Positions 9,538 through 57,590 of a stretch of DNA of 64,000 nucleotides are shown here, piece by piece; within the stretch, counting starts at the first letter, position 1, and each line of letters begins with the position of its first letter. Source of the DNA: Dactylorhiza incarnata. Its lineage: Eukaryota > Streptophyta > Magnoliopsida > Asparagales > Orchidaceae. The translations under genes and the position numbers were made by a program. The DNA lies in assembly GCA_033032865.1 (NCBI GenBank), contig JAWHQI010000040.1, forward strand, positions 9,903,001 to 9,967,000, given 5' to 3'. The notes below the pieces were generated by a model. That model ran no database searches. It saw only the letters and a list, made by a program, of their open reading frames with translations, and was not told the origin of the DNA.

Positions 9538-9934
9538 CGTGTCGAGTGAGAAAGGATGGCAGAAGGGGGAAGTCCCTTCTGCGAGTTAGTACTTTCTGCA
9601 CCTGTCCCGGCAGGGTTCGGATAGTGGGACATGGTGTACTACAACAGCAGGAATGACCCTGTCCAACATCTCCAGTCTTTTGAGGACTCGGTCTCTATCA
9701 GGCCGATGTCAGATGCTTTCAAGTGTCGGCTCTTCGCCGTCACCCTTAAAGAAAAGGCCAGGGACTGGTTCCATCAAATCCCTACAGGGTCGATCTACGC
9801 CTTTGAAGATTTGCGCCGAAGTTTCTTGCTGCGATTCTCGACTTCAAAAAAGAGGAAGAAGGACGTCGAGTCTCTCTTCAAAGTGAAGTAGGAACCCAAG
9901 GAGTCGTTGGCTCGCTACGCGGATCGGTTCTAGG
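9109..9934 (+). pseudogene. gag: Gy2 gag, part 1 (interrupted by CopA)
   Basis: The first ATG after the primer site opens a frame whose start (VTPRMFADFRIEVLDTF) matches Gy1 gag. A TGA at 9232-9234 interrupts it, after which the same frame continues through a Pro/Ala-rich linker and a poly-Gly stretch made by a 30-base G run. The capsid part (9631-9891) has HLQSFEDSV, CRLFAVTLKEKARDWF and LRRSFLLRFSTSKKRKK, typical of the plant retrotransposon gag domain and close to TatD gag. Further in-frame stops follow. CopA then splits the gene at 9934; it resumes at 21067. Confidence 0.8.
9508..9537 (+). repeat. G30 homopolymer
   Basis: Thirty consecutive G residues inside Gy2 gag, read as poly-Gly. 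Likely to form G-quadruplex and prone to length change and sequencing error, so the exact length is doubtful. Confidence 0.85.
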
Positions 9935-10082
9935 TGTTGGAGCATGCATTTCGCACTCCTCCAGTTTGATAATAACAAAGTCCCTTTTGTATTTGATTCT
10001 ATTTTCATTAATGGTGTGCAGATAACAGGTATGTGATGTTCACATTGCTGCTGGAGCTAAAATTGAATGTGGGAAAAATTCA

Positions 10083-10412
10083 CTGTCGGAAAATTCCGAC
10101 AGCCACTGTCGCCCAGGCGACAGCAGAGAAGTTACAACTACTTCCCTCCACGGCAGATCGACGAAAGACAGTTTTGCGCTGTCGGAATTCCGACATCGAT
10201 GTCGCCCAGGCGACAGCTCGACGGTTACACCAACTGCCCACGACTTCACCCACGACAGCGGCGGTTTTGCGCTATCGGAAATTCCGACATCGATGTCGCC
10301 CAGGCGACAGCTCCACGATTCCAGCAACTGCCCGCACGACGGCTCGACGACACGACAGCGGCAGTTTAGCGCTGTCAGAAAATTCCGACAGTCACTGTCT
10401 CCCAGGCGACAG
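10083..10412 (+). promoter_or_regulatory. Four paired palindromes in CopA U3
   Basis: Each pair is palindrome B (arms CTGTCGGAA / TTCCGACAG, variable A/T centre) followed after 3-6 bases by palindrome A (CTGTCGCCCAGGCGACAG). Pairs start at 10083, 10179, 10272 and 10372, roughly 95 bases apart. The last ends 8 bases before the TATA box. TCGACGR motifs lie between pairs. Matching copies are in the 3' LTR (19933-20262). Likely protein-binding sites; the binder is unknown. Confidence 0.85.
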
Positions 10413-10420
10413 TGAAATTC

Positions 10421-10427
10421 TATAAAA
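10421..10427 (+). promoter_or_regulatory. CopA 5' LTR TATA box
   Basis: TATAAAA, immediately downstream of the fourth palindrome pair (spacer GTGAAATTC). The 3' LTR has the same at 20271-20277. The position fits the U3/R boundary about 30 bases downstream. Confidence 0.8.
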
Positions 10428-11208
10428 TGGTTCCTTTGGTTCGTGCATTCCAAGCTTTTGAGAATTCCAGTTCCTTCCTGAGTGCATACGAACCAGAGAG
10501 CTCCAGAACCTCCTCAACTCCCATTTGTGCAAAGAAGGATTGAAGATTGAAGACGAGATCGGGCGCGCTTCTACATCAACGATCATCTCGAGGCTTCAAC
10601 AATCCATTCAGAGATCTGAATTTCTAGGGAGTTGTCTTTTTCATATTGTATTTTCATTTACTCATATTTCATTTTGTATTGGGAAAGAAATCGTGGTCTT
10701 GCGTGCGGCGTCTAAGTCCTTGCGCGGCTTAAGGGAAAATCGCTTCCTTGTGCGGAGCGTCCAAGTCCTTGCGTGGCTTGGTGGGAAATCGTGGCCTTGT
10801 GTGCTACGTCTAGATCTTGGGAAGATCTAGAGGATAGGTTTGGGCTTGATCTTGGGAGAGACAAGCGATAGCCTTCCGATCCTTGGGAGAAGGATTGGTA
10901 AACCAAAATTATTGTATTTTTATCATAATTGTGCCTTGATCTTAAGCATTGTTAAGATCATTTTTATTTGTATGCAAATTTCATGATATATATAAAATTA
11001 TGATCCTTTCACTAATTGCAAATTTGTGTGCTTAAATCTTTATCTTAGAAATTTGTGTTTGGTGTTATACAAAAATTGCATTGGTTTAAAATTATTTTTA
11101 AGTAACTTTCTATTAAAGTAAATTTGTCTAAAATTATTAAGAAAAAATTACAAATTTAAACAAACCCTTATTCACCCCCCCTCTAAGGGCGTCATACGAT
11201 CCAACAAG

Positions 11209-11220
11209 TGGTATCAGAGC
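11209..11220 (+). promoter_or_regulatory. CopA primer-binding site (initiator Met tRNA)
   Basis: TGGTATCAGAGC two bases after the LTR end, the standard plant initiator-Met primer site of Copia elements. Confidence 0.95.
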
Positions 11221-11255
11221 GAGGTTACTCCAAAACGGTTTTACCACCGAGAGTA

Positions 11256-13226
11256 ATGGCGCACAACGATCACGCGTTCGTTGAGGGGCAAGGAATTAGT
11301 AGGCCACCACTTTTCACGGGCACGGACTATAATTATTGGAAAACACGTATGCGTTGTTTTCTAATTGCTTTATATATAGAAGTCTGGAATATGGTAGAAA
11401 CTATTTACACTTCTCCAACATTTGTTGTAGGAGATGTAACTATGGAAAAACCCAAAGACAAGTGGGATGATAATGATAAATTAAAATGCAAAAACAATGC
11501 AAAGGCCATGAATGCCTTATTTTGCGCACTAGATCGCACTGAGTTTAATAGAGTCTGTGCTTGTGATACTGCTTTTGATATTTGGAATCTTTTAGAAATT
11601 ACTCATGAAGGTACTTCGCAGGTAAAGGATTCAAAGCTATTTCAATTGGAGTCAGAGTTCGAAAGATTCAAAATGGAGGTGGATGAAGAAATTGACACAA
11701 TGTACACACGATTCACTAAAATCGTGAACGATTCAAAGGTGTTGGGTAAGGTTTTTTCAAATGGAGATTTAGTTAGAAAAATCTTAAGATCACTTCCCCC
11801 GAAGTTCAATCCAAAAGTGACTGCAATTTCTGAGTCACATGATCTTAAGACCTTACAATTGGAAAGTCTCATTGGGAATCTAAAAACCCATGAAGTGGAG
11901 TTGAAGATTCAAAGCCAAGAGTATAATTTGGAGCCCAAAAAGAAAAGCTTGGCGTTGAAATCTAAAAAGGAAATTGAGAGTGAGACTGAAGAAAGTGATG
12001 AAGATGAAGAAGGACTGTTTGTGAGAAATTTTAAGAAGTTTATGAGAAATCCGGAGAGGAGAAACTCATTTAAAAAGTTTTTCAAAAAGAAGGATTTTGC
12101 CTACCAAAAAGGCAAAGGAAAAGTGGAAAATGAAGAGGAGCGTCCGCCACCGGAGTGCTACCATTGCAAGAAGATTGGTCATATCAGAAGCAAGTGCCCA
12201 AAATATCTGAAAGAGCAAAAAGCAAAGAGGCACGATAAAAGTTACAAGAAGAAAGTGTTAAAGGCAGAGACTTGGGATGATTCTTTGTCTGGTGAAGAAA
12301 GTGATCCCTCAACACAGGAGGAAGAGGAGGCTAATCTATGTTTGATGGAAAAAGGGAACATTACATCTGATGACGACTGCAGTGTCCAAAGCGACACTGA
12401 GGTAACGCCTCCATCTTATGATGAGTTATATTCTGAATTTATAAAAACATGCAAAGTTTTGGATAAAAGCTTAAAGGAAATTGATTTTTTGAAATCTGAA
12501 AATAAAGGCCTTTTAAAAGCAAATAAAAAACTATCAAATGAGTTGGAATCTATTAGGAAGGAGAAGGTATTTTGTCAAGAGTGTGATCATTCTTCGACAA
12601 GGATAAAAGAACTTGAAACTACTATTTCTAAGTCCGATCAAAAATTTGATCTACTTGTAAAAGAAAAAAAGGACTTAGAAAAAGTTGTTAAAACCTCTCA
12701 TTCTCAATTAGAGAATTATAAGAAAATTTTTGCAAATAGATGTGGCATGATAGTAAAAGAAAATTCAATTTTAAAATCCAAAGTAAATGAGTTGAACATG
12801 GCAATTGGGAAATTTGGTGTTGGGAAAAAATCTCTGGATATGCTTTTAGCCAACCAATGCCATGGTACAGCAAAATTTGGACTAGGATACATTTCTGGAA
12901 GCTCTGGAGGCTGTCGGAAATTTCAGACAGCTACTGTCGGAACCGGCGATAGCTCCAGGTTCAGAAAACCAATTTCTCAAAATACAAATTTTTCTAAGTC
13001 CACACATAAAGATGCTTCCACCAGCAAGAGTCCAGAGAAACCATTGAAAAATGGTTCCTCACCATTCATTGTGTGTGCTAAATGTCATCGATTTGGTCAC
13101 ATCTCGGGCTCATGTTGGAAGAAAGGAAAAGCTAATGTTAAACAAATCTGGGTACCTAAGGCGTCCACCTATACAATGGGATTGACCACTTGGGTAACCA
13201 GATCTTTACTCTCATCATCTTTTTAG
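11256..13226 (+). CDS. gag: CopA gag polyprotein
   Basis: 656 residues from the first ATG after the primer site (MAHNDHAF); the frame is open further upstream but without an earlier ATG. The N-terminal third has the UBN2-type Copia gag fold signature (FTGTDYNYWKTRM, then SLPPKFNPKV). A CCHC knuckle (CYHCKKIGHIRSKC) lies near residue 301, a Lys/Glu coiled coil at about 410-540, and a second knuckle (CAKCHRFGHISGSC) near residue 607. It makes the particle that packages element RNA. A palindrome pair lies inside the coding region at 12911-12950. It ends in TAG at 13224-13226, and pol continues in the same frame. Confidence 0.93.
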   Translation: MAHNDHAFVEGQGISRPPLFTGTDYNYWKTRMRCFLIALYIEVWNMVETIYTSPTFVVGDVTMEKPKDKWDDNDKLKCKNNAKAMNALFCALDRTEFNRVCACDTAFDIWNLLEITHEGTSQVKDSKLFQLESEFERFKMEVDEEIDTMYTRFTKIVNDSKVLGKVFSNGDLVRKILRSLPPKFNPKVTAISESHDLKTLQLESLIGNLKTHEVELKIQSQEYNLEPKKKSLALKSKKEIESETEESDEDEEGLFVRNFKKFMRNPERRNSFKKFFKKKDFAYQKGKGKVENEEERPPPECYHCKKIGHIRSKCPKYLKEQKAKRHDKSYKKKVLKAETWDDSLSGEESDPSTQEEEEANLCLMEKGNITSDDDCSVQSDTEVTPPSYDELYSEFIKTCKVLDKSLKEIDFLKSENKGLLKANKKLSNELESIRKEKVFCQECDHSSTRIKELETTISKSDQKFDLLVKEKKDLEKVVKTSHSQLENYKKIFANRCGMIVKENSILKSKVNELNMAIGKFGVGKKSLDMLLANQCHGTAKFGLGYISGSSGGCRKFQTATVGTGDSSRFRKPISQNTNFSKSTHKDASTSKSPEKPLKNGSSPFIVCAKCHRFGHISGSCWKKGKANVKQIWVPKASTYTMGLTTWVTRSLLSSSF

Positions 13227-16200
13227 GTGTGCGTGCAGGCTAGGAACAAGGAAGACGTGTGGTATTTGGACTCTGGATGTTCAAAACACATGACGGGAGA
13301 TAAATCAAAGTTCCTTAGCCTGGAGATGAAGAAAGGTGGAACAGTGACATTTGGAGATAATGGAAAGGGTAAAGTCAAGGGCATTGGAGTAGTAGGTAAC
13401 ACCGAATTTAAAATTTCAAATGTTTTATATGTTAAAGGTTTGAAACATAATTTAATTTCTATTAGTCAACTATGTGATAAAAATCTAAATGTTTTATTTG
13501 ACTCTAGCTCAAACCTTTGCAAGATTATTGATTCTAAAACAAACGAAATCGTACTTACTGCACCAAGAATAAACAATGTCTATACGATCACTTTTCATGA
13601 TTTATCTCATTCTACACTTAAATGTTTTATTTTGAAGAATGATGAACTTGAATTATGGCATAGGAGACTAGGACATTCTAGTGCTAAACGCATAGTAAAG
13701 CTTTCTAAAAATAAAATAATAAAAGGTTTACCAAATTTGAATGGAAAGCTATCCTCATTATGTTCACCATGCCAAAAGGGAAAGTTTACAAAATCATCTT
13801 TTAAAAGCAAAAATGTCATTTCTACCACTAGACCTTTACATTTATTACATATGGACTTGTTTGGTCCAATTTCTACACAAAGTCTAGGAGGTAGAAAATA
13901 TACGTTTGTTATTATTGATGATTATTCTAGATTTTGTTGGACTTTGTTCTTAAATTCAAAATCTGATGCTTTTGATGAATTTGTAAAACTAATTTCACGT
14001 ATTCAAAATGAACTTGATCTAAAAGTAAAATGCATTAGATCCGATCATGGAGGAGAGTTTGATAATGAAAAATTTATTTCATATTGTAATGAATTTGGGA
14101 TAAAACATGAATTTTCCGCTCCACGCACACCACAGCAAAATGGTGTAGTAGAGAGGAAAAATAGAACACTTCAAGAATTAGGACGGACTATGCTGTGTGA
14201 ATTTAAATTGCCAAAATATTTTTGGGCCGAAGCAGTCAGTACGGCATGCTATATTATTAATCGTGTCATGATTCGTCCCACATTACAATTAACCCCTTAT
14301 GAAATTTATTTTCAAAGAAAACCAAATGTATCTTACTTTAAAGTTTTTGGTTGTAAATGCTTTATTTTGAATACAAAAGATAACTTAGGCAAATTTGATG
14401 AGAAATGTGATGAAGGAATTTTCATTGGTTATTCTTCAACTAGCAAGGCCTATAGAGTTTATAATAAGAGAACAAAAATAGTTGAAGAATCAATTCATGT
14501 TAGGTTTGATGAGTTTGCTTCATGTGTAGAAAAGAAAACTACAGGAAAAGAAGATGAACCCCTTCCATCGATGGAGAATAATGATGAACTTGGAGAAAAT
14601 GAAGAAGAAAAAGAAGAAGAAAGAGAAGAAGAAAGAGAAGAAGGAGGAGAAGAAGAAAGAGAAGAAGAAAGAGAAGAATATGTGCCTCCAAGTGAATTGA
14701 GATTCTCAAAGGATCATCCAAAGGAGCTTATCATTGGAGATCCGCAAAAAGGGGTTAGTACTCATTCATCGCTACATGTTTTATTTTCAAACCTTTGTTT
14801 TGTTTCTGAAATAGAACCAAAAGATGTTTCCACCGCTTTAAATGATGAATTTTGGTTTTTAGCTATGAATGAAGAACTTAATCAATTTGAACGTAATAAG
14901 GTTTGGAATCTTGTAGAACGACCCAAAAATCATCCTGTAGTTGGTGTTAAATGGATTTTCAAAAATAAAATGGATAATGAATCTAGAATTGTTAGAAATA
15001 AAGCCAGATTAGTTGCAAAAGGTTATGCACAAATTGAAGGGGTAGATTTTGATGAAACTTTTGCACCTGTAGCAAGATTAGAAGCGGTTAGAATATTTCT
15101 TGCATTTGCTTGTTTTAAAAGATTTAAATTATATCAAATGGATGTCAAAACCGCATTTTTAAATGGGTATATAAAAGAAGAAGTTTATGTAGAACAACCC
15201 CCTGGCTTTATAAATGAGAAATATCCAAATTATGTTTATAAATTAGATAAAGCGCTTTATGGATTAAAACAAGCGCCTCGTGCTTGGTATGATCGATTAA
15301 CTCAATATTTGTTAAAGCACGATTATAAAATAGGAAGTGCTGATTCTACACTCTTCATTAAGCAAATTAATCATGATTTAGTTATTTTGCAAATTTATGT
15401 TGATGATATTATTTTTGGAGCCACTAATGAAGAGTTGAGTAATGAAGTAGTTGAAATTATGAAAAATGAATTTGAAATGAGTATGGTTGGAGAACTTTCA
15501 TATTTTCTAGGTTTTCAAATTACACAAAAACATGATGGAATTTTTATATGTCAAACCAAGTATATTCACGATATGTTAAAAAGATTTGGATTTGAAAACC
15601 TTAAGCATGCAAACACTCCTATGAGTACTTCACTAAAATTAGGAAAAGATGAAAGTGGTGTTTCAATTGAACAAACCCTTTATAGAAGTATGATAGGGTC
15701 TTTATTGTATTTAACCGCATCTAGACCTGATATTATGTTTGTCGTTTGTTTATGTGCTAGATTTCAAGCTAGTCCTAAAGAGTCACATTTAAAAGCGGTG
15801 AAACGTATCTTTAGATATCTCATTGGAACATCAAAATTAGGTTTATGGTATCCTCAAAATGATTCTTTTATTTTGCATGGTTTTTCGGATTCTGATTATG
15901 CGGGATGTTCCTTAGATAGGAAAAGCACTAGTGGCACTTGTCACTTTATCGGCCCTTCCCTTATTTCATGGTCAAGTAGGAAACAGAATTCTGTTGCCCT
16001 CTCAACTACCGAGGCCGAATATATTGCACTAGGTAGTTGTTGTGCCCAAGCACTTTGGATGTCCCAAACACTAGAAGATTTTGGCATACAACAAAGTAGT
16101 GTAGAATTAAAGTGTGATAATAAAAGTGCTATAGATTTAACAAACAATCCCGTATTACATTCTAGATCTAAGCATATAGACGTCCGACATCATTTTATAA

Positions 16201-16343
16201 GGGATCACATTAAGAAGGGTAATGTAAAAATCAACTTTATAGGCACGGAAAATCAACTAGCGGATATATTCACTAAGCCGTTACCGGATTCCCGTTTTTC
16301 TATGCTTAGGTTAGAATTGGGCATTCTAGACATTTCACAATGA
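13227..16343 (+). CDS. pol: CopA pol polyprotein
   Basis: 1038 codons in the gag frame, open directly after the gag TAG with no ATG, so made by readthrough or from a spliced RNA. Order: protease ([13 protein letters not shown]), integrase zinc region (WHRRLGH...CSPCQKG), integrase core with D (HMDLFGP), D (RSDHGGEF) and E (NGVVERKN), a Glu-rich linker, RT ([26 protein letters not shown], catalytic YVDD near residue 724), and RNase H ([35 protein letters not shown]). All catalytic residues are present. This is the Copia order (integrase before RT), with SIRE/Maximus-like features. Confidence 0.95.
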
Positions 16344-16566
16344 ATATATCACAATTTAAAGCCTATAAAATAAAAAAATTATTATCACAAAACATAAACA
16401 ATGTACAAAGAAAAAGCCAAAATCTTAAAAATCTAAACATAAAATTTCAAAAGACTTAACAAAAATTCAACATCATTAATATTACATCAATATTGTTCAA
16501 ATAAAAACAGTAGAAACAACTTAAGATCAAGTTCATTAAATAAAAGCAGAAATCTAAAGATTTTCA

Positions 16567-16605
16567 CTGTCGCCCAGGCGACAGTGGATGTCGGAATTTT
16601 CCGAC
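16567..16605. promoter_or_regulatory. CopA internal palindrome pair 1
   Basis: A palindrome CTGTCGCCCAGGCGACAG (16567-16584) and B core GTCGGAATTTTCCGAC (16590-16605). On the antisense-gene strand it begins about 28 bases past the stop codon, in the presumed 3' UTR. Confidence 0.8.
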
Positions 16606-16633
16606 ATCGCCTAGCAAAAGCAGCAACATAAAA

Positions 16634-17749
16634 CTACTCTGAATCTTCATAACCAGCCCCGCTGCTCTCTGGACAATCTTCTGGAGGTCCTCGTCTCACG
16701 GCTTTGCCACGGCGAGTTCGCCTCACCGATTGGCGTGGCGGTTCTTCGTCCGGAACTTGCCATTCGGCCTCTTCCTCCGGAGTTGGTTTCAACTTCAGAC
16801 CTTTGACGAGAAACTTCATAAATTTCTGCATTCGACTACGGTCCTTCTTCACTTCCCTCTTGTGATCCTCTAATGAATCACGCAAATCATCAATGGACTC
16901 TCGTAGTGATCCTGCCCTAGAAATGGTCGGCTCTCTCATCTCAATCCCCGGATGAGCTTTTCTCTGCGGCTTCTTCACCTTCATTGACCCCGTATAATAT
17001 ATTTCCGGGTAACAATCATCCAAATAAGCACCTTGCACTATCCATCCATACTTCTTGTAGAGCACACGCTGTATTACCGCCCCCATTGGCAGCGTATGAA
17101 CCTTCACCCATCTTGGATGCTTTAATCTATACGCATACCTAATCTGTGCGAGTATGAAGTCCGCCACATCAAAAAGCTCATCCTCCATAATATAGTATGT
17201 AAAGAGGGTCAACTGAGCCGTAATGCTTCTTGTGTCTCCACTCTTCAACATCACTGAATTCCTTAATATATCTTGGACTAAGAACGCATCCGGAGTAAGT
17301 GAGGTAACTTCAGTGGTAAGAGTCTTCTTTTGATTCCCATGTAAACTCATGTTTACAAGGGTCCAATCTCTATCCTTTCGATAATTCTCCACTATATCAG
17401 GCATATTCTCACTCATCACTAGTCCGAATTCCTCTCGTAGATCAACATGTGTTATTTCCACATGTTGACCTTGGATCTTTGATCTCACTCCTCCATCCAA
17501 TTCCGTGAAATTTGGGTCTTCCAAATGGTTATAAAATTCACGAATAAAAAAGGAAGAAAACCCCTCTGGTGTGATTATTGAAATTATACCTGTGTTCGCA
17601 AGCCGATCATAGATATGATCGTGCTTTGGAGACTCAAATTCCACATACTTCGCTATTCCAACAATAGCCTTCTCCACCCCCGGAAAAACTTGATATGAAG
17701 TATGTGCATCTTCCGAAGTACTCTTTCGAGCTTTGGAACTGGAAGCCAT
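16634..17749 (-). CDS. CopA antisense accessory protein (371 aa)
   Basis: Open reading frame opposite to gag-pol in the 3' region. I start it at MASSSKARK (17749): the ATG directly follows a 3' splice-site-like TTTTATTGCAG, and a TATA box and 5' splice site lie upstream. Residues about 30-250 resemble the plant 'putative transposon protein' domain found in retrotransposon antisense ORFs (FFIREFYNHL, VEITHVDLREEFGL, LTLFTYYIMEDELFDVADFI, LPMGAVIQRVLYKKYGW). Then come a likely coiled coil (LRESIDDLRDSLEDHKREVKK), an acidic piece and an Arg-rich NLS-like tail (RRTRRGKAVRRG). No stops or frameshifts. The biochemical role is unknown; I infer a nuclear, possibly dimeric protein. Confidence 0.8.
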   Translation of the reverse strand: MASSSKARKSTSEDAHTSYQVFPGVEKAIVGIAKYVEFESPKHDHIYDRLANTGIISIITPEGFSSFFIREFYNHLEDPNFTELDGGVRSKIQGQHVEITHVDLREEFGLVMSENMPDIVENYRKDRDWTLVNMSLHGNQKKTLTTEVTSLTPDAFLVQDILRNSVMLKSGDTRSITAQLTLFTYYIMEDELFDVADFILAQIRYAYRLKHPRWVKVHTLPMGAVIQRVLYKKYGWIVQGAYLDDCYPEIYYTGSMKVKKPQRKAHPGIEMREPTISRAGSLRESIDDLRDSLEDHKREVKKDRSRMQKFMKFLVKGLKLKPTPEEEAEWQVPDEEPPRQSVRRTRRGKAVRRGPPEDCPESSGAGYEDSE

Positions 17750-17750
17750 T

Positions 17751-18291
17751 CTGCAATAAAATACAAATATTTTGATTAAACAAGATATCACATTGTGCAC
17801 TGGAACACTGTCGCCCAGGCGACAGTGGCTGTCGGAAATTTCCGACAGCCCTCCAAGTGATTTTCTCTCAAAATTTTTACATGTACTTCCAGATCTACTC
17901 AAAATAAATGTTATTTCAACATCAAGTTTCAAAAATTTTGATCTATGTTTTTCAAATCATCATATTCTACAAATCTTTTTACTATTCATCATCTTCCACC
18001 TTCTTCTCTAAACTAGATCTACAAACCTCCTTTAGAAAATGAACGAATGGAAACATTCCTCACCAAATCAAAGAGAAATCTAACAAAGATAAAAATTTAA
18101 GCAAAGATCCTCCAAGATCCTCTTGTTTTAAAACTAGATCTACATTTTTTTTTTCAAATAAAAAAAAATTCAAAACCTACACCATTCCTCAAAAATCAAC
18201 ATGAAATCTAGATTTTCCTTCTTCTATCCTATCAAAATCACAAAGCCCTAAACATTTTTGAGTTTAAAACACAAAAATCAAAAACCCATAC
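17751..18291 (-). other. Probable 5'-UTR intron of CopA antisense gene
   Basis: On the minus strand the region opens with AAG|GTATGGG (exon end at 18292) and closes with TTTGTATTTTATTGCAG|A one base before the ATG, both good plant splice sites; length 541. It is AT-rich and contains a palindrome pair at 17808-17848. RNA evidence is needed for proof. Confidence 0.6.
17808..17848. promoter_or_regulatory. CopA internal palindrome pair 2
   Basis: A at 17808-17825 and B at 17829-17848 (perfect CTGTCGGAAATTTCCGACAG), in the probable intron of the antisense gene. Confidence 0.85.
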
Positions 18292-18388
18292 CTTAGATCT
18301 AGGATGTCGCCGACTTCCGACAGCCTTCCTCTCGTTTTTCACTCCAGGAAATGATGCACAATGTGTTTTGACTCGGTCCTCAGCCCTA

Positions 18389-18443
18389 TTTATATTTTTC
18401 ACTGTCGCCCAGGCGACAGTGACTGTCGGAAATTTCCGACAGC
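18389..18443 (-). promoter_or_regulatory. Antisense promoter of CopA: palindrome pair plus TATA
   Basis: On the minus strand: B (18443-18424), TCA, A (18420-18403), GTGAAAAA, TATAAATAGGG (TATA at 18396-18389). The LTR promoter reads B, TCA, A, GTGAAATTC, TATAAAATGG, the same order and spacing within a base or so. It lies about 95 bases upstream of the proposed 5' splice site, so it should drive the antisense gene. Confidence 0.78.
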
Positions 18444-19784
18444 TCCTATTTTACCAAAACTCCAATTTTAGGCCCCTTTGATGATCTACAATAGTTATAT
18501 GTCATTATTAATGCTTTATCTCATGACTTGATGACAAACCATGTGATATTTATTTTAAATAAAATGACTTACATGTTTATATGATTTCATTTTCAAGCTA
18601 TCATCGTATTGACATTTCTACTTAGCTGTTTAGACCATTGGAAATTGTTTTCGCATGCCTCTAAGTATGAGAAATTGTTTATCTTTCATAATGAGCTATC
18701 ACGTTCACCTCTTTTGATCAATACATATGTCTACTTCTTTAATATATACATGGATCATATTTGCTTTAACATAATACAATAGCATTTCTTAAAAACAACT
18801 TTCACCCTTGATTTTTTAGCACAACAAAAGTACACCATCTTTTGCGGTTCAAGTGAATTCGGAGATCCTTGGTCAATTAAAAAATTATCAATATATAAAA
18901 AAAATACGATATCACATCTGTGATCAAAAAAAAAAATTTCAAAATAAAGACAAGGATACTCCACCAAGCACTACTTACCCTCCTGATAAGTCTTAATGAG
19001 CATTGTGAGGTTAAGCACCTTGGACAGAATTGTAAAGTGTCTTGTGCAAAAGAAACATGGTTTTCTATTCATCTTGTGCTATATCTTCAAAGTCAATGTT
19101 GCATTTATGTGCTTTTATTATGTTCTACATTTCAATGATCATGTAAATTAAATAAGTTCATATGTTTGTTCTAAGTATCACATGTACACATCATTATGTT
19201 ATATAAATATTCATCTCATGAGAATTGGACTGAAACGATTCCATACTTCTTTACATTATTGTGTCTTTCTATGATACTTTCAAATGATCTTACTCATGTT
19301 TCAGTTATTTTCCTTCATTACTTCATATGGCTATACTGTCACTTCATGAGTTTATTCTAACTATGGCATATTCCTATTATTTCATGGCCTTCAATCATTT
19401 CCAGAAAACAGTGCTTCCACTTAATCTTACTTTCTATATTCTATATACCTTCCCTTTAGAATCATTTCTCTTATCTAATATTCACTTTTGCTAATACCAA
19501 AAGGGGGAGAATTATCAAGTATAAAAAGAAAAATCAACAATCTATTCCACCTAAATATTCCACCTACACAAATACATCATATATTTAGGGGGAGCATATA
19601 TTTAAGGGGAGCATTCATTTAGGGGGAGCATTCATTTAGGGGGAGCTTTCATTTAAAGGGAGATTATTTATTTTAAGGAATATATATAATGTTAATTTTG
19701 TGCACACACCTAAGTTTAAAATCAACAATCTAAATAGACATGATTTCTTTTTATACGGATTTGTTATTATCAAAAGGGGGAGAT
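18444..19784 (+). other. CopA AT-rich region with repeated purine tracts
   Basis: No supportable gene. Near its end are at least six purine tracts: AAAAGGGGGAGA at about 19499, four TTTAGGGGGAGC-like blocks at 19587-19655, and AAAAGGGGGAGAT at 19772-19784 directly before the 3' LTR. The last is the polypurine tract that primes plus-strand DNA; multiple tracts are known in SIRE-type elements. Confidence 0.75.
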
Positions 19785-21066
19785 TGTTGGAGCATGCGTT
19801 TCGCACTCCTCCGGTTTGATAATAACAAAGTCCCTTTTGTATTTGATTCTATTTTCATTAATGGTGTGCAGATAACAGGTATGTGATGTTCACATTGCTG
19901 CTGGAGCTAAAATTGAATGTGGGAAAAATTCACTGTCGGAAAATTCCGACAGCCACTGTCGCCCAGGCGACAGCAGAGAAGTTACAACTACTTCCCTCCA
20001 CGGCAGATCGACGAAAGACAGTTTTGCGCTGTCGGAATTCCGACATCGATGTCGCCCAGGAGACAGCTCGACGGTTACACCAACTGCCCACGACTTCACC
20101 CACGACAGCGGCGGTTTTGCGCTGTCGGAAATTCCGACATCGATGTCGCCCAGGCGACAGCTCCACGATTCCAGCAACTGCCCGCACGACGGCTCGACGA
20201 CACGACAGTGGCAGTTTAGCGCTGTCGGAAAATTCCGACAGTCACTGTCGCCCAGGCGACAGTGAAATTCTATAAAATGGTTCCTTTGGTTCGTGCATTC
20301 CAAGCTTTTGAGAATTCCAGTTCCTTCCTGAGTGCATACGAACCAGAGAGCTCCAGAACCTCCTCAACTCCCATTTGTGCAAAGAAGGATTGAAGATTGA
20401 AGACGAGATCGGGCGCGCTTCTACATCAACGATCATCTCGAGGCTTCAACAATCCATTCAGAGATCTGAATTTCTAGGGAGTTGTCTTTTTCATATTGTA
20501 TTTTCATTTACTCATATTTCATTTTGTATTGGGAAAGAAATCGTCGTCTTGTGTGCGGCGTCTAAGTCCTTGCGCGGCTTAAGGGAAAATCGCTTCCTTG
20601 TGCGGAGCGTCCAAGTCCTTGCGTGGCTTGGTGGGAAATCGTGGCCTTGTGTGCTATGTCTAGATCTTGGGAAGATCTAGAGGATAGGTTTGGGCTTGAT
20701 CTTGGGAGAGACAAGTGATAGCCTTCCGATCCTTGGGAGAAGGATTGGTAAACCAAAATTATTGTATTTTTATCATAATTGTGCCTTGATCTTAAGCATT
20801 GTTAAGATCATTTTTATTTGTATGCAAATTTCATGATATATATAAAATTATGATCCTTTCACTAATTGCAAATTTGTGTGCTTAAATCTTTATCTTAGAA
20901 ATTTGTGTTTGGTGTTATACAAAAATTGCATTGGTTTAAAATTATTTTTAAGTAACTTTCTATTAAAGTAAATTTGTCTAAAATTATTAAGAAAAAATTA
21001 CAAATTTAAACACACCCTTATTCACCCCCCCCCCCCTCTAAGGGCGTCATACGATCCAATCCAACA
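19785..21066 (+). repeat. CopA 3' LTR (1282 bp)
   Basis: Partner of 9935-11206. Palindrome pairs at 19933-20262 and TATA at 20271-20277. Here pair 4 is perfect (it has two substitutions in the 5' LTR), while pair 2 has one substitution (AGGAGACAG). A C-run near 21027 is longer than in the 5' LTR. Confidence 0.95.
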
Positions 21067-21892
21067 CTAGGAAGAAGTGCTGCTCACTCAGGAGATGCCT
21101 GGGTTTGCACTCCAGCTCGCCTTCACGGTCAGGCTTAGGGAAAGTTTCTTCAAAATGGCTCTGAAGAGGAAGGCCCCCGTCTCCTACGAGGAGATAATGG
21201 AGAGGGTGGCGGAGGAAATCGAGAGTGAGGAGGCCAACCTGGAGCTCACCAAGAGGCTAGCAAAGCTTAGTGAGCCAGAGGTCGGGCAGCAGGAAATAAG
21301 GAGAAGTGAAGAGCCCAGGGCCCCGGAGGGGGAGTGGAGACATCGTGCCGAGGGAATGCAAGGTCAGGGAAGGGATTACAGCCCAGGAAGGGGTAACTTC
21401 TTTGGGGGTCAAGGAAGACACCATTTGTTGGGATGGAGGCAGGATCCAAGACCGATGCCTCCTCCACCCCAGCAAGCCATGGCAATCCGGCGGGGAAGGG
21501 GAGGAAGAGGAAGGAGAGAAGCGAGAGAAGAAGAGGGAGCAGGAAGGAGAAGGAGGAACAGGGTGGCAGATGCCGAGACAGGGGAGGTGATGTTGCTGTA
21601 TTTTGACTTTCATGATGAGGAAGGTCATGCGACGGCCACCTGCCCGGAGTTCCTAGAGACAAAAAGGGCCCGAGTGCCCACGCGGCGACAACAGCAGCAG
21701 GTAAGGATCGAGGAAGTCGTGCCTCGAGAAGAGGAAGAGGAAAGGTGCGAGGGCCGGGCCGATTTGGGGTCCCAATGGGGGATCGGGGTGATCCATGGGG
21801 GGGGGGGGATTAAGGCAACCCGAAAGGCAAGCCTCCATACCATCTATCGTCGTAACGTAGTTTTGACATCCCTAAACCTGCCCCCGGCGTAA
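21067..21892 (+). pseudogene. gag: Gy2 gag, part 2
   Basis: Resumes after CopA, starting with the right CTAGG duplicate. Open for about 270 codons: a helical segment (VSYEEIMERVAEEIESEEANLELTK), an Arg/Gly-rich region (RRGRGGRGRREAREEEGAGRRRR) likely to bind RNA, and a degenerate zinc knuckle (FDFHDEEGHATATC, first Cys replaced by Phe). TatD has the related FCEYHKEGGHLTENC. Ends at a TAA before the protease. Confidence 0.8.
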
Positions 21893-40183: not shown

Positions 40184-41333
40184 ATGTGGGCGCATTTGAA
40201 TATCCATTGTCGTTGGTGTGGGGACACATCCCACGCTAGTGATAGGTGTCCCAAAGAGTATGGTGTTGTTCAGAAACCATACAGGTCCCATAAATCTTTT
40301 GGCTCCTCTACTGCACTTCCGTTGACGCATTCTCACACTGTTGCCGCACCTTGGGTGCCGGCTAAGCCGGTGAGACATTGTTTATTTTGCAAAAGTAGAG
40401 AGCATGCCTTGAAGGACTGTGCGGATTACCTTCGCCAATTGGAGGATGACGATGAGACGGATATCCGGATCGTCCCATCTTCGAATTCTGCGAGCACAGC
40501 TTCTTCCTCTGGTTACGTATCCCTTCCACCTTCACTTCTTGAAGTCTCTGGAATCGACACGTGCATCAGTGTCCCTCATGACCCTGTTTCTAACGCTACC
40601 CCCCCATACCTCTTCGGTTCACGTACCACTTTGTGTGGATTTCTGCCCTTGTGTGGAGAGTGAGCACGAGCTCTTAAGAAGCACGTCTTCACCCACTACA
40701 CACGAAACTACATCTATTTCTGATGTTATCATTGAGATCAATTTGCAAGATGGTGCAGACCTACGCAGTGTCGTCCCCACTCTCATGGAGGCGGACAGTC
40801 TCGATTGTGCTGAAGCAACCATTTTGGTTCAGTGCGAGAAAGTCCAAGTTAGAGAGGAGGCCATTGTGTGCTCTGTCGAGTCTAGTGAGATCTCCGACGA
40901 TGTCATCAGTTTATCATTGCCGCACCACATGGGGGATGAAGCCGGGATTATCCCCTCAGATGAGATTTCTTTTAGTTTTTCTTCTAATTTATTTCCTGAC
41001 CCCCTTTCTTTTTGTACAAGGATGCAGGATGTCCCTCCTACGGTTGATCAGATCTTATGCTTGGAGGAGCCGAAAGCCTGGCGGGGTGAGGAAGGTACAG
41101 TGAAGGAACATCTTTTTTCCTCATCATCGTTGGTGCTTCCCTTTGAGGATTGGTTACAAGGGGGCAAGCAGTTTTTCTTTGAAGATATAATACTGGAGGA
41201 GAAGAAGAGAGCGAAAAAGGAGGAGATTTGGGGTTGGAGGCTGAGCATCTTACTTATTTTCCACCCCTACTACCAGGTCCCCGGACCTTTTTCTTTCATC
41301 AGCTGTTACTACTTCAAATCAGCTTATAGCTGA
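40184..41333 (+). pseudogene. LARD-B gag-like gene with +1 frame change
   Basis: First frame 40184-40663 (159 codons) has two CCHC knuckles: CRWCGDTSHASDRC (residues 9-22) and CLFCKSREHALKDC (about 67-80). The second frame (+1, open to 41333) is acidic and ends LPFEDWLQGGK, a Lys/Glu cluster, KEEIWGWR and a hydrophobic Tyr/Phe tail. A C7 run at 40599-40605 lies in the overlap and is the likely place of the shift. The homologous gene in LARD-A also needs a +1 change. Function beyond RNA binding by knuckles is unknown. Confidence 0.65.
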
Positions 41334-41429
41334 TTTGTTTTGAGCTTGTAATAATAATTAGGATTAATTGACCTTTGCTCATTCCTAGACTTTATAAATT
41401 GCTTTAATACAGGTATTTGGTCCACCTTT

Positions 41430-41468
41430 AAGGACGTTAAACAAAAGGGCTTCTTGGGAGACAACCCA
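41430..41468 (+). other. Conserved motif after LARD-B gag-like gene
   Basis: AAGGACGTTAAACAAAAGGG then CTTCTTGGGAGACAACCCA, matching 6601-6638 in LARD-A. Confidence 0.6.
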
Positions 41469-43091
41469 TGGGAACCACCCGGTTCCGTTTGCTTAATTTA
41501 ATTTCTATTATGTTTTGTTTGCTTTTGCTTTTGTTTTTAACTATGCAGGTGTGAACTCGATTGGATGAAGAGGAGGAGATCATTAAAGAAGGATTATACC
41601 GCTCTTCTGGCATGCTCTTAGGAGCATAGGTAATCTTAGCCCAGCTCTTAATCTGCTTTGAAAGATTATATTTGCTTGTGTTTCAATTCAAGTCTGGGGG
41701 GGGGGGGGGGGAGCGAGCCTTTGCTTACGCCACACGCACATGCATGCTAGAATGTTGTGTTAGGAAATTTATATTTATTATCTCATTGCATAACACACTC
41801 CACATGCGTTTTATTTTTACTCGTGCGCAATTATCGTGTAAGTGCTTGATGTATATGTTTGGAAGTTTGATTGTTAGTTTAGGATTGTGTGGCTGAACAG
41901 GATGTGACCCGTACGGTGCTGCTAGTAGAGCACTCACGCAGCTTAAAAAATCACGTAGAATAGATTTAATTACAAAGTTATAGTTTTATTTACTTCATTT
42001 GTGTAATTACTTAATACTCTACTCAAACGGTGAATTTGGTGAATCTAGCGGTAGCCCTTGGTCGAGTGTAGAAGAGCTGTTAGCCTCGTGTTGTTTGAGT
42101 TGGAAGGAGAGGAGACCTCGCTCGGTGGTTAAGAACTTGCCCCAAGCTATTTTCAAAACGAGTGCGTTGAATGATCTTGTTGGGAGCATGACGTAGGCCA
42201 TCATTTGGTCCGGTTGAGCTTTGATTTCCCAACCTATCGTCATCCTTTGCTAGCTCCGTTGAGCCTTACCTTTCCTATTTGTTAAACTCCACTAAATGTT
42301 CACCAAGGCCCCATATCCTAACCTAAAACGCACTAGAGTCAAGCTTTGAAACTTATACATATTGATGATGATTGTGCGATGCGGAGAACAAATATGTGGT
42401 TGTGTGATGTGGTGTGTGCGCGCAGGAAAAAAATGAGATTGAAAAAAAAAATTTTGATTGATCCTAAATTATGTTTCTATGGATCTAAAAAAAAGAGTAC
42501 AAGATCTCTAACAAGAATCGAACCACAAGTGTGGTAGTCTCGCGCACACCATAGTGCTTAAATGAAGTCTGGGGGAGTGTGCTTCAAGGTGAGGATGTTA
42601 TGGTTGAAATTTGTTTATTTACCGGAAGTTGAGTGTGTTTAGCCTACGTTCTTCTACTTCATTACCGTACCTCAACCAAGCCCAAGTCTAACCTAAAAGT
42701 CCTACTGATTCTTGATGAGATCGTGTCATGCAGTGGAGAAGGTGTGAAAGGGCAAGCATATGACCATCGACCTTGATGGATTTCTTGGAGAGCTCTTTCT
42801 TGAGATCCAATTTGAACAACGCTCACCTCAGCAGCTCACGCTATTTTCCCTAGGGCGCGACAGTACGATTCACCTATAATTCGCCTTAGAGTAGTAGTAT
42901 TTTGTATTTTACACTTGTAGAAGTTCTTAAAATATAGTCTTTGTTTTAAAATCTTTTCTACTATATTTTACGCTCGTTAGTTCTTCACTTCCCATTGTGT
43001 TTCGCCTACACAGTTGCTTCCTTAACGTTCATTTTTCTACCATAGGATTGAGTGTTCGCCCGAGATGTGCAAACGAGTAAGTCTGGGGATG
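41469..43091 (+). other. LARD-B non-coding 3' region
   Basis: No gene seen. Purine tracts after AAGTCTGGGG occur three times: about 41690 (with a G run of about 15), 42567 and 43078-43091; the last abuts the 3' LTR and is the probable polypurine tract. Block 42000-42240 is homologous to LARD-A 7200-7430. Confidence 0.65.
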
Positions 43092-46730: not shown

Positions 46731-46736
46731 TTTGTC

Positions 46737-49219: not shown

Positions 49220-49615
49220 TCCTCTACTTAGTTTTCACTAATCCCTTTCTAGATGATTGGTTAGACAACCTTTCAGGATTTGGATGAACTATAACCGAGC
49301 AAAGGGGAGTCTTGGACTATTGTCTACTTAAAAGAAGTTCCAGGAAAGAAGTCAGAAAGGGGGAGAAAGGAAAAGGGCATCAAATGTTCAAGACAAGATT
49401 GCTCAAGAAGACCTCAAAGATAGGGGGAGCAAAGAAGTAGGGGGAGCCGTAAAGAAGAGACATCAAATCAAGGGGGAGCCACAAGTTTGATGCACTCAGG
49501 GAGTTCAGCAAAGATAAGTAGAATCTTACATACTCAAAGTTAAGATTATAATATTTATTGTCTAAGTGAAAGTCATCTTGAATTGAGATTCTGACTTCTT
49601 CAAATAGGGGGAGAT
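49220..49615 (+). other. CopC 3' purine-tract cluster
   Basis: No gene. AGGGGGAG-type tracts at about 49367, 49417, 49437, 49472 and 49604-49615; the last, AAATAGGGGGAGAT, is the polypurine tract abutting the 3' LTR. Confidence 0.75.
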
Positions 49616-51383: not shown

Positions 51384-51388
51384 ACTAC

Positions 51389-51876
51389 CTTCCATCCTTT
51401 GGACTCTCCGCACTACTCCATCTTCAGCTATGGGGGAGACACCTTTCAAATTATCTCATGGCTTGGAGGCAGTCGTTCCTATAGAATTTGAAGTGGCCAC
51501 CCACAGAGTTGTATATGCAAAGGAGGGAGGAGATGCATGGATAGATAATAGTGATGACGCTATCAAATATAGTCTGGATTTGATTGAAGAGATTCAGGAT
51601 GAAGCAACAATCAGGCAGGAGGAAGTAAAAAGGAGAATGACCAAATACTTTGACAGAAACGCCAGGGTTAAACATTTTACCATTGGTGATGTTGTACTAA
51701 AGAAAGTTGATGCCGCAGCTAGGACAGGCAACGATTGAAAATTAAATCCCAACTGGGCAGGGCCCTTCATTATCAAGGAGGTACTAAAGAGTGGGGCTTA
51801 TCGCCTCCAGACAAGCAAAGGAGAGGACATCTCATGCACCTGGAGCGGTGACGATTTCAAACGGTTCTATCCTTAA
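51389..51876 (+). pseudogene. TatD integrase, C-terminal part
   Basis: Continues the integrase cut by CopC. The GETPFKLSHGLEAVVPIEF block is the hallmark of the Gypsy integrase C-terminal region, followed by a helical segment and VLKKVDAAARTGND; a TGA at about 51736 is followed by NPNWAGPFIIKEVLKSGAYRLQ and GDDFKRFYP, stop at 51874-51876. The end matches the short tail left in Gy2. Confidence 0.85.
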
Positions 51877-53835: not shown

Positions 53836-54246
53836 TCATATGTACTCGTCCGACTTGAGCTTTTTGGCTGTAGGAGAATTCGAGTCCTCGCTCCCATCAA
53901 TGTTTACGTCGAGCGAGTAGCCTTCACTACTCGATGAAGAACTTGATGAACCACTGCAAGTAGCCTTCTCCGGAGTCACTGGACTCCGAGCCTGAGCTGC
54001 TTTTCTTCTCATTGTCATCAGCGGTCTCCTTCCCCACAGCGGCCTCATCAACCACAGCGGCTTCCTTATCCACGGCGGTCTCATCATCGTCGTCTTCAGC
54101 CTTTTCCGAGTTGCTAGACTCAACCTTTCCTTTGGCTTTGCGGTTCATCTCATCAAATTGGCCCTTCAGGCTGGGAAAGATGCCAGGAAAGTGGAATCCT
54201 CAAAACCCGCAGCCAGACCGTCGCGGTCTCTCAGACGATTGAGGGC
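53836..54246 (-). pseudogene. TatD antisense gene, last exon remnant
   Basis: Minus-strand open region with a very acidic, Ser/Glu-rich sequence; one frame ends SEGYSLDVNIDGSEDSNSP...KKLKSDEYI (stop at 53836). Position (between array and 3' LTR side) and acidic C-terminus parallel gene A1 of Gy2. CopE is inserted at its upstream end, so promoter and earlier exons are beyond the window. The frame is uncertain. Confidence 0.4.
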
Positions 54247-55102
54247 GAAGTTGAAAGACTTTATTTAAGGGTAGCTAATCACCTAGAGGTGGGGGGGGGG
54301 TGAATATGTTATTTTGAAATCTATTAGCAATTCCTGATTAAATCCTAAATGAATATGAATGAAGATCAGAGCTTTCAAGAAAACAAACACTCAAACACAC
54401 AGAATTTTATAGTGGTTCCCCTATCTTGGGTAATCGACTTTCCCCCTTCTCCCCTCTAGCAGTGTGCTAGATAGGGTTAATATCTCCTCCAGATCTCAGA
54501 CCACTAAAAAGGTCTTACGGCTCAGATCTCAACAGATCTTATAGTCTCAGATCTCAACAGATCCTACACTCTCAGATCTCAACAGATCTTACAAACTCAG
54601 ATCTCAACGGATCCTACCTCAGCCCTTATAACAATAGGCTTACACTCAGATTCACCCCTGAATCTTACAACTCAGATCACACCTGATCCTACACCTCAGA
54701 TCCTTGAAAGATCCTACACTCAGATCTGACAACTCAGATCCTACAAGATTTGAAAGAAGTAGAATTAACACTTAGACTCAGATCTTCAGTATATTGAGTC
54801 TTCTTGATCTATCTGAAAGATCAGATAGAAAACTTCAGCAGAACAGCAACAACGAAATGGTCTTCTTGAATTGCACAGGATGTGATGACTGTTCTTCTTT
54901 AGGAAGATAGATTCTTCCTCCTTGACCTTCTCTCTTCAGACAATAATTTCAGCACCAGATTGCTGAAGGAATTTCTTGTAGTACGATTCTGAAAGAGGAG
55001 ATGGTTTCTTCAGATTCTTCCTCAGATTTTGTTCTTGAATGATGGAGAAAATAATGGCTTTCAATAGGAATGTTCAACTTCTAAATCATAGGTCATGCCT
55101 TC

Positions 55103-55110
55103 TATTTATA
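55103..55110 (-). promoter_or_regulatory. CopE LTR TATA box
   Basis: TATAAATA on the minus strand between the U3 hairpins and the R/U5. Confidence 0.72.
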
Positions 55111-55328
55111 ACCCGCCATCCGCAACATCTGAGACGTTCCTCCACGTCAGCATGACGTTAGACCTTCAACGGTCTTTAGTGGCTTCAGAATAGACGAGGA
55201 GTTTAGACATGGTGATCATCTCGACATGTCTCAGCTTGCTCTAGTTGTATTCTTACACATTTCTGAACTCAGATCTTTTCAGGAAAAAGTCATTGAGCAC
55301 TGTGGATCTCTGTCGACGCTTTTTTTGT

Positions 55329-55668
55329 AAGGTGTTGAGCGATGTGTAGATGCTCGACACTTTCTACTTAGACTGAATCTCTGAGCACCTCCTTCTTAGG
55401 CGTCGGGCAATCTTTAGTCGTTCAACACTTTTTATCTGTAAGAGTCAAGCAATGTATAGGGGTTCGACGCTTCTTAACTCTGCCTTCACATCTAGACTCT
55501 TTTTGTTGTCGTTGAGCTAACTGAAGTTTAGTCGACACTTCTTATTCCACGGCGTCGAGCGATATTCCTTGGCTCGATGCTTCTTGACTTGATCTCAGAT
55601 CTTCAGCAGACATAAGTCGACGCTTCTGGTTCACAGGCGTCGGGTGATGTGTAGTGTCTCGACGCTTG
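55329..55668. repeat. Six inverted-repeat units in CopE U3
   Basis: Each unit is GCGTCGAGCGAT-like, about 8-12 bases, then GGCTCGACGCTTCTT-like, forming GTCGAGC / GCTCGAC arms. Units near 55329, 55397, 55439, 55505, 55549 and 55635; arms vary but keep the dyad in most. Confidence 0.75.
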
Positions 55669-55817
55669 TGAACTTAGATGAATTTCTTGAGCACCTAGCT
55701 TGACCTGATCTCCTACACAGTGATTCTATAAAGTATATCAAATACATTCTGAGATATATCTTTGACTTAGGAATGGACTTCTCCAAATCTAGGACATTGT
55801 GGTAAATGGTCCTAACA

Positions 55818-56157: not shown

Positions 56158-57239
56158 TTAAGGTTCCGTGATATCTATTCCTCTTTTGGCTCTCTTGGAT
56201 AGGGCTTCAGCAACTTCTTTCCTTCTCTTGAAGTAGCCAAACGGCTTTGGGAAATATCTGATTGGCTCCTTATCACTTGCCTGAACTTTCCCAGCCAATT
56301 TGTCAGCTTTGAACTTTATCTTCAGCTCCTCCTGATCCCTGTGTTTCAACCACTCAGCTTCAGAATACCATTTCCCCCTCTCTCCTGGATTACCTTTCAC
56401 AGCTTCCCAAGCTGCCAGAATCATTTCCTTTTGGAGGATGATGAGCTTGAAGAGCTGGAAAAGATCTTCTTCTTCCTTTTCTTCTGTACTTTCTTCTGCT
56501 TTGGAGAAGATTCTGCTGGTGGTTGGCTTGGCAGAATCCTTTCCCATCTCTCTAACATTCTGATGTCCATTTTCTTCATATGATTTATTTTGGATCCAAG
56601 TCTTTTGCTTAAGGAATCTGGGATTACTTTTACTAGATATAGTGACAGTATCCTACCCATGTTGGGTGCTTGGACACATTCTATCACTCTGTCAAACACC
56701 ACCATTCCCCAATCAGTTCTAAATGTATGAATAATCCTGGTCAGTAGAACAAACATTTTCCTGGAGATTTTATCATGGGACCCTGTCTTGCATAATAGTC
56801 CCTTTCCAATTACATCTGTCAGCAGCTTTCCCTTTGAATTCATCCCTTTCCTCAGTATACTCCCAGAAATTTCATGTGATGTTTCAATCCCACACCAGAC
56901 TTGGGCTAATCTTATCTGCTCAGAACTCACTTCTTCTTCTTCCTCATTACATTTGAGTCTTGGCAATTCTAGTGCCTTAGCGAGTCTCGTAGGAGAAATC
57001 TTAATCTTCTTACCATTTACAGTAGTTTTAAGCTTCGAGTTGGCGGAGTCTATTACTGCATTGGAGAGTAGTTCTAAAACCTCTCGTTTCCAGATTAGAG
57101 ATGCTTCAGATAGAATGAATTCTAACCCTGATTTGTAAATTAGCTCGATGGTTGTCTTGATTTCCTCTGGTGCAGCTTGGAATCCATTGCGAATGAGCTC
57201 TTCTCCTTCGTAAAGGTAATCACTGCTCTTGGGAGGCAT
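56158..57239 (-). pseudogene. CopE extra ORF downstream of pol
   Basis: On the same strand as gag-pol. ATG at 57239 (MPPKSSDYLYEGEELI) about 105 bases after a TATA box. Residues about 50-200 hold VLELLSNAVIDSANS, KKIKISPTRLAKALELP and ISRKMFVLLTRIIHTF, a layout that recalls the CopA antisense protein (distant, not proven). A basic KQKKVQKKRKKK stretch and poly-Ser follow; the frame then stops at 56421, while an overlapping frame from about 56547 continues with Glu/Lys-rich text to 56158. One frameshift is implied. Not an envelope: no signal peptide or membrane helix. Function unknown. Confidence 0.65.
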
Positions 57240-57341: not shown

Positions 57342-57353
57342 CCCTATTTATAG
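57342..57353 (-). promoter_or_regulatory. Internal TATA box of the CopE extra ORF
   Basis: CTATAAATAGGG on the minus strand, about 105 bases before the ATG and about 120 bases downstream of the 20-bp array. Confidence 0.65.
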
Positions 57354-57470
57354 AATTTCTAATTCAAGAAGATGAATAGCCGCGCGCCAGACTTGTTTAA
57401 CCAAATTGATCAAATGGTTCAGATTTACCCTGTTGAGATGACCTTGCTCATTTTACACACGCATTGAGAT

Positions 57471-57590
57471 TGCTTGACGTAAGTTATCCTCGCTCGACGC
57501 CATTTATCTTCGCTCGACGCCAGGTGTCTTCTCTCGACGCCTGGTATCTTTGCTCGACGCCATGTATCTTCGCTCGACGCCACGTATACT
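57471..57590. repeat. 20-bp array ahead of the CopE extra-ORF TATA
   Basis: Six units at exactly 20-bp steps (57471, 57491, 57511, 57531, 57551, 57571), consensus CGCTCGACGCCATNTATCTT. The GCTCGACGC core also occurs in the CopE U3 hairpins. Twenty bases is close to two helical turns, so all cores face the same side. Confidence 0.9.

Follow-up and report, generated by a model that had tools for sequence, protein, structure and literature searches.

Many plant genomes contain abundant Sireviruses, whose palindromes and extra gene have no proven function according to the available parts of PMC2829016 and PMC3414828. The locus described here, a window of 64,000 nucleotides from Dactylorhiza incarnata, raises the question of whether the two belong together. 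In one of its retrotransposons (element 1) an extra gene has a promoter built like that of the long terminal repeats (LTRs), and this shared build joins two old puzzles into a single testable question, that of binding between protein and palindrome. Element 1 may encode a protein for its own control.

Element 1 and its antisense gene

The element named CopA in the first-pass annotation is complete and flanked by the target duplication CTAGG. Its parts, located by LTR alignment, flanks and gag/pol domains, are as follows.

9935..21066, plus strand: element 1, complete Sirevirus-type Ty1/copia retrotransposon
9930-9934 and 21067-21071: target duplication CTAGG, direct flanks of both ends
9935..11206, plus strand: 5' LTR, palindrome pairs upstream of its own TATA box
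11208..16343, plus strand: gag frame (11208-13226) and pol frame (13227-16343)
19785..21066, plus strand: 3' LTR

The two LTRs are identical at 1258 of 1275 aligned positions, with 5 gap positions and about 12 substitutions, a number that at plant substitution rates probably places the insertion less than 1 million years ago. The termini are TGTTGG and CCAACA, the primer site is TGGTATCAGAGC, and gag and pol are both open with copia-type domains in a domain scan. CGG-CCG palindromes are clustered in U3 upstream of the TATA box, and polypurine tracts in the form of 17-nt GGGGGAG repeats (19583-19670) stand ahead of the 3' LTR. Element 1 is called Sirevirus-type because these U3 palindromes and repeated polypurine units fit the features described in the available part of PMC2829016, which counts polypurine-tract repeats among the characters of the group; together with the copia-type domains, the sequence is consistent with a place among the Sireviruses. 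A poly-C stretch lies near the LTR end and may or may not correspond to the poly-C-rich integrase signal that an abstract names as a Sirevirus trait.

In the stretch from the stop of pol (16343) to the 3' LTR (19785), the sole long frame is antisense and runs over 371 codons from 17749 to 16637, while no sense frame exceeds 89 codons. The longest ATG-initiated frame in 500 dinucleotide shuffles of this 3441-nt stretch averaged 82 codons and reached 203 at most, so that the fully open gene of 371 residues proposed earlier stands far above the shuffles. The gene and the palindromes associated with it are listed below.

16637..17749, minus strand: accessory gene in antisense, 371 codons followed by the stop at 16636-16634 (open frame, selection tests)
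17751..18291, minus strand: 5'UTR intron, GT-AG, presumably spliced; sites kept in 22 of 22 copies, 13 ATGs inside
18292..18362, minus strand: exon 1, no ATG, presumed start about 30 nt past the TATA box
18387..18394, minus strand: antisense-promoter TATA box TATAAATA, present in all 22 copies compared and in 2 of 3 more diverged copies
18400..18442, minus strand: promoter palindrome pair, CGG type 18423-18442, GCC type 18400-18421
17806..17848, minus strand: intron palindrome pair, diversity 0.014 versus 0.098 in the rest of the intron
16565..16607, minus strand: 3'UTR palindrome pair, diversity 0.026 versus 0.083 around it
20222..20277, plus strand: LTR promoter module, CGG palindrome 20222-20241, GCC palindrome 20243-20264, TATAAAA 20271-20277

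Read towards the antisense ATG, the minus strand presents first the palindrome pair and TATAAATA, then exon 1, which has no ATG, and then a GT-AG intron with its acceptor. Exon 1 ends at 18292 (AAG|GTATGG) and exon 2 begins at 17750 (TTGCAG|A), with the ATG at 17749, one base past the acceptor; the splice sites AAG|GTATGGG and TTGCAG|A of the first-pass annotation, and its ATG at the start of exon 2, thus lie where it had placed them. No ATG occurs in the 78 nt assigned to exon 1 and 13 occur in the intron. The sequence TATAAATAGGGC, the donor GGTATGG and the acceptor GCAG|AATGG are kept in all 22 distinct copies compared, the window included; this comparison omitted one distinct copy, L006, which was taken into the 23-copy analysis of diversity given below. 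In three further, more diverged copies, TATAAATA is kept in two and is replaced by TATAAGTA in L067, the donor pattern is found in two (not in L067), and the acceptor pattern is found in one (L068), with L067 carrying the GCAG|AATGG acceptor in a separate output. The antisense mRNA would start near 18362 and is presumably spliced. The intron is present in every aligned copy of the family, and the antisense placement would keep it through copying because the genomic RNA carries it backwards and could not splice it out.

Selection on the gene was assessed in copies from the window's own genome (3.27 Gb). A search with the antisense protein gave 9188 candidates, of which 110 were scored (96-100% identical); 97 of the 110 are without a stop, a figure biased by ranking with the same protein. 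Twenty of the 110 were picked by hand, five of them with a stop, and eight loci were in addition cut automatically, one being the window itself and five being copies also picked by hand. Because this first sample was ranked by the antisense protein itself, the selection test based on it was replaced by one on a second sample, drawn by the RNase H end of pol, for which 150 of 116094 candidates were scored (149 listed besides the window) and the best seven besides the window were examined. The antisense frame is present in all seven, in the stretch from pol to the 3' LTR, and none has a stop codon; L061 and L063 each show a one-base gap. Compared with the window copy, pS ranges from 0.021 to 0.386 and pN from 0.006 to 0.055, giving pN/pS of 0.10 to 0.44; the top ratio, that of L060, comes from 5 and 8 changes. 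For the two copies furthest apart, pS is 0.455, pN 0.057 and pN/pS 0.13, and the ratio lies at 0.13-0.20 among the most diverged pairs.

In a frame control with the five gap-free copies, the gene frame shows a pN/pS of 0.14 versus 0.29 to 2.40 in the other five frames, which in the window copy are interrupted by 15 to 30 stops. The most constrained part is the long-helix region 277-330 (0.08), followed by the PF20167-like part (0.12), and the least constrained are region 214-276 and the basic tail (0.21 each). The low pN/pS and the stop-filled alternative frames therefore indicate that the protein sequence matters to element 1, and the Ka/Ks comparison proposed in the first-pass annotation has yielded purifying selection, so that one of the three refuting outcomes it named, a frame free of such selection, did not occur. 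From sequence, the antisense gene with its own LTR-like promoter is well supported as real.

In L062, L064 and L065 the antisense gene shows a higher synonymous divergence from the window (0.24-0.39) than does the RNase H end (0.05-0.19). The opposite holds in L059, L060, L061 and L063; the RNase H figures are low through the choice of copies by RNase H similarity. Recombination between copies could account for this mismatch.

Palindromes shared by the LTR and the gene

The two palindromes, labelled B and A in the first-pass annotation, are here termed the CGG and the GCC palindrome, with the half-sites TGTCGG and TGTCGCC. The antisense gene promoter reads CTGTCGGAAATTTCCGACAG-TCA-CTGTCGCCTGGGCGACA-GTGAAAAATATAAATA on the minus strand, and the 3' LTR promoter reads CTGTCGGAAAATTCCGACAG-TCA-CTGTCGCCCAGGCGACA-GTGAAATTCTATAAAA. 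Gene and LTR share the order of CGG palindrome, GCC palindrome and TATA (5 and 6 bases on), and the two modules form arms of 47 nt that are 94% complementary. The minus-strand promoter was accordingly found to repeat that of the LTR in order and spacing, and the further pairs claimed for the intron and the 3'UTR are also present. With up to 3 mismatches, GCC-type palindromes occur at 7 places (12 rows) and the CGG type in 8 rows, and neither occurs in 100 shuffles each. The promoter core CAGTGAAAAATATAAATAGGGC has 223 occurrences genome-wide and its reversed control has 0.

The three palindrome pairs of the gene unit have a mean diversity of 0.033 versus 0.082 in random noncoding stretches of the same size (23 copies), and 33 of 5000 random draws were as low. 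This low value rests on the intron and 3'UTR pairs. The promoter pair equals its flank (0.058 and 0.058); most of its variation comes from three bases, one where the palindromes join and two at the outer end. The antisense-gene TATA lies in 22 nt of higher diversity (0.106), though TATAAATA itself is constant. The centres of the CGG palindromes are mostly AAAATT, AATT, AAATT or AAAT at 92 LTR sites and mostly AAATTT in the promoter and intron, and this difference by place argues against simple homogenisation. Two diverged copies, L066 and L067, carry a damaged GCC palindrome in the gene promoter, and a search of their LTR pieces gave no exact TATAAAA.

Other arrangements of the same half-sites were also observed. 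Exon 1 of the antisense gene contains a mixed palindrome, TGTCGGAAGTCGGCGACA (18305-18322, minus strand), in which a CGG half-site faces a GCC half-site, and a site of this type was found in 18 or 19 of the 24 copies scanned. In the intron of L020 the palindrome pair is duplicated along with about 69 nt, a possible route for the growth of motif arrays.

A second element and the two extra proteins

The minus strand holds a second Sirevirus-like copia element (element 2), which occupies positions from about 54240 to past 64000; its LTRs agree at 93.4%. Its extra gene sits in sense after pol.

54240..55817, minus strand: 3' LTR of element 2, with an approximate low end; GCGTCGAG half-sites precede its TATA box
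56421..57239, minus strand: extra gene of element 2, in sense, 272 codons in this copy; PF20167 score 34.1 bits, short of the 45-bit cut-off
57345..57352, minus strand: extra-gene TATA box, 113 nt ahead of the ATG
57453..57585, minus strand: tandem 20-nt repeats with GGCGTCGAG, upstream of the extra-gene TATA

The frame of this gene reads to 713-865 codons in six other copies. The motif GCGTCGAG precedes the TATA box of both the extra gene and the LTR, in direct tandem repeats before the gene and in inverted pairs in the LTR. Across the internal region and an LTR slice, 15 of the 16 hits to the half-site with at most 1 mismatch fall in or next to the gene-promoter and U3 bins or inside the gene, and one falls in pol. 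A family search scored 142 of 39555 candidates, and 20 of the 142 were taken, every one listed without stops. In all 21 copies the distance from the TATA box to the ATG is 113-122 nt, too short to offer much space for an intron, and 4 to 8 half-sites lie upstream of the box. The LTR start is readable in 15 of the 21, and 14 of these 15 carry the half-site there, L038 being the exception. The leaders of the 21 copies, chosen among stop-free rows, hold one or two ATGs, and the pN/pS of the extra gene is 0.16 over 210 pairs, a value biased by the choice of stop-free copies.

Each of the two elements therefore repeats an element-specific motif in its own noncoding DNA, as VANC-carrying transposons do. 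Exact TGTCGG and TGTCGCC are absent from element 2 and exact GCGTCGAG is absent from element 1. Positions of 8-mers shared between LTR and gene promoter number 41 and 26 in matched pairs versus 3 and 4 in mismatched pairs. With unrelated motifs and oppositely oriented genes, the two elements thus obey a common rule, by which the motif of the LTR is also the motif of the extra-gene promoter.

The two extra proteins cannot be aligned with each other. The antisense protein matches PF20167 (Transposase_32) at 30.3 bits (E 4.6e-7), below the Pfam cut-off of 45 bits, and three of its diverged copies do so at 30.7-32.3 bits; the element 2 protein scores as listed above, and two of its copies score 40.8 and 28.5 bits. 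All these scores fall under the curated cut-off, and the other Pfam matches of the antisense protein are weak chance hits. Strong PF20167 hits also occur in the same genome (150 listed), and the two that were read, L069 and L070, are in sense and follow a frame resembling, by eye, a Gypsy integrase; the match in L070 reaches 156.7 bits. No homologue of the antisense protein was found at E <= 0.001 among 1190 candidates from a collection that may hold few plant proteins, none was confirmed in viral contigs, and none was found in solved structures at E <= 1 or in NCBIfam. Profile comparisons among the two extra proteins and an Athila-type protein gave probabilities of 0.6, 3.0 and 1.7 percent from very shallow alignments. 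Structure predictions made without an alignment are unusable (mean pLDDT 42.1 and 38.2), with a long helix at residues 281-317 of the antisense protein (block pLDDT 52-74) in an otherwise unusable model. Of the coiled coil and basic tail proposed earlier, the tail is present (RRTRRGKAVRR), the helix is predicted, and the coiled-coil call was made by eye alone.

Known systems and the readings of the locus

Several parts of this arrangement have precedents. The available part of PMC2829016 (Bousios et al. 2010) describes repeated motifs of Sireviruses, the RM boxes, which are likewise CGG-CCG-core palindromes clustered in the LTR upstream of the TATA box and which recur near the extra gene (ENV) in 9 of the 13 elements listed there. 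The published ENV lies in sense, and an internal promoter was proposed for it but none identified in that part of the source, whereas in element 1 the gene is antisense, a TATA box stands beside the motifs, a second (GCC) palindrome is paired with the first, and copies are found in the intron and 3'UTR. Antisense genes between pol and the 3' LTR are known from the Gypsy elements Grande (gene23), RIRE2 and Retand (PMC7264820 and the available part of PMC11963269). According to these sources, Grande gene23 is nuclear and transcribed from its own promoter, and a regulatory role has been suggested; a motif shared by LTR and gene was not seen in PMC7264820 or in the available part of PMC11963269. 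Element 1 differs in being a copia element and in having a weak PF20167 match where Retand has PF04195. A PF20167-like region in an extra gene after pol is shared with Athila-type Gypsy elements, for example the sunflower Athila ORF in the available part of PMC11728184. That gene lies in sense, however, and element 1 matches PF20167 far more weakly than L070 does; it is L069 and L070, with a sense PF20167 gene behind a Gypsy-integrase-like frame (by eye), that resemble the sunflower element. A literature search with most subscription journals outside its scope found no antisense gene in a Sirevirus, and no palindrome-TATA promoter common to LTR and extra gene in either orientation.

VANC of the VANDAL transposons (available parts of PMC5735166 and PMC10398659) is also the product of an element-coded extra gene, associated with a short element-specific motif that is repeated in noncoding parts, introns included, and varies among families. 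VANDAL elements are DNA transposons, and binding and loss of methylation have been shown for VANC, whereas for the element 1 protein both would be predictions. VANC binds repeated motifs in the noncoding DNA of its own element, and such loops thus exist in plants (PMC5735166, available part).

By analogy, the antisense protein is tentatively viewed here as a self-regulatory factor that would read the motif of its own element. The spliced antisense mRNA would yield a protein with a PF20167-like region, a long helix and a basic tail; this protein would act in the nucleus and recognise the TGTCGG/TGTCGCC half-sites both in the LTRs and at the gene that encodes it, and the LTR and gene promoters would thereby be switched on together and shielded from silencing, in a self-addressed loop like that of VANC or a viral transactivator. 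This reading is favoured because purifying selection was found in a sample not chosen by the gene and with a wrong-frame control, because LTR and gene share the order and spacing of palindromes and TATA, because all 22 copies compared retain the TATA box and the splice sites, because the palindromes as a set vary less than random stretches and have place-specific centres, and because element 2 pairs a different motif with its own LTR and extra gene. Counting against it are the promoter pair, no less variable than its flank, and the diverse 22 nt around the TATA; the damaged GCC palindromes of L066 and L067, the latter also with TATAAGTA and no donor by pattern; and the two extra proteins, which are not alignable. 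Within family 1 both motif and protein are conserved, which leaves too little variation for a comparison of their changes, and two families are few. The overall interpretation of the first-pass annotation holds for a real antisense gene with an LTR-like promoter, on the evidence of selection, kept sites and element 2; that the protein binds the palindromes is something we infer.

It is more doubtful whether this applies to Sireviruses in general, with the extra or 'envelope-like' gene encoding a self-addressed transcription or anti-silencing factor, the palindromes serving as its binding sites, and protein and motif matched family by family. Either orientation of the gene would then be allowed, since the gene carries its own copy of the motif-TATA promoter. 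Sireviruses would in that case have a retrotransposon counterpart of VANC, and co-evolution of protein and motif could help to explain the divergence of families and the escape from silencing.

The main rival, a quite conceivable one, is that host transcription factors read the palindromes, so that the host controls LTR and extra gene together, for example under stress, with the protein serving a different purpose such as nuclear import or particle assembly. Sirevirus motifs were matched mainly to stress-related sites in the available part of Bousios et al. (PMC2829016), and the promoter build is common to LTR and gene whoever reads it; unrelated motifs in two families of one genome, however, are less expected of shared host factors, and motif pairs are present also in the intron and 3'UTR. 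It is improbable that the palindromes act as DNA or RNA structure, as CpG-rich hairpins through which methylation, the production of small RNAs or recombination would be set without recruitment of a specific protein: the sites are palindromic, contain CpG and are often repeated, and CpG islands over such motifs are reported in the available part of PMC2829016, but the direct repeats before the element 2 gene mean that a hairpin is not the common factor, and the fixed place before the TATA box is left unexplained. Regulation by the antisense RNA itself, which would pair with genomic RNA and feed small RNAs with the protein being secondary, is hardly likely either. Such a role has been proposed for ORFs of this kind (PMC7264820) and agrees with the convergent arrangement, but it has no need of the observed selection on amino-acid sequence, and the family 2 gene lies in sense. 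A functionless chance or relic frame, with which the lack of homologues in a collection perhaps poor in plant proteins would agree, is very improbable and was rejected, being contradicted by a length far beyond the shuffles, by seven stop-free copies of seven, by a pN/pS of 0.13 even at pS 0.455, and by the frame control with its stop-filled other frames.

Some minor features of the window may be added. A third copia element has its pol at about 46737-48850, and no LTRs of it were found in 41000-54200 as repeats of at least 40 nt. An open frame of 885 codons at 151-2808 has a marginal ETF_alpha match (28 bits versus a cut-off of 27) in which no single stretch passes on its own. Within element 1, the gag frame contains a CGG-type palindrome with one changed base (GCTGTCGGAAATTTCAGACAGC, 12910-12931), far from any promoter, and the pol frame contains the 12-nt tandem repeat GAAGAAGAAAGA at 14594-14678.
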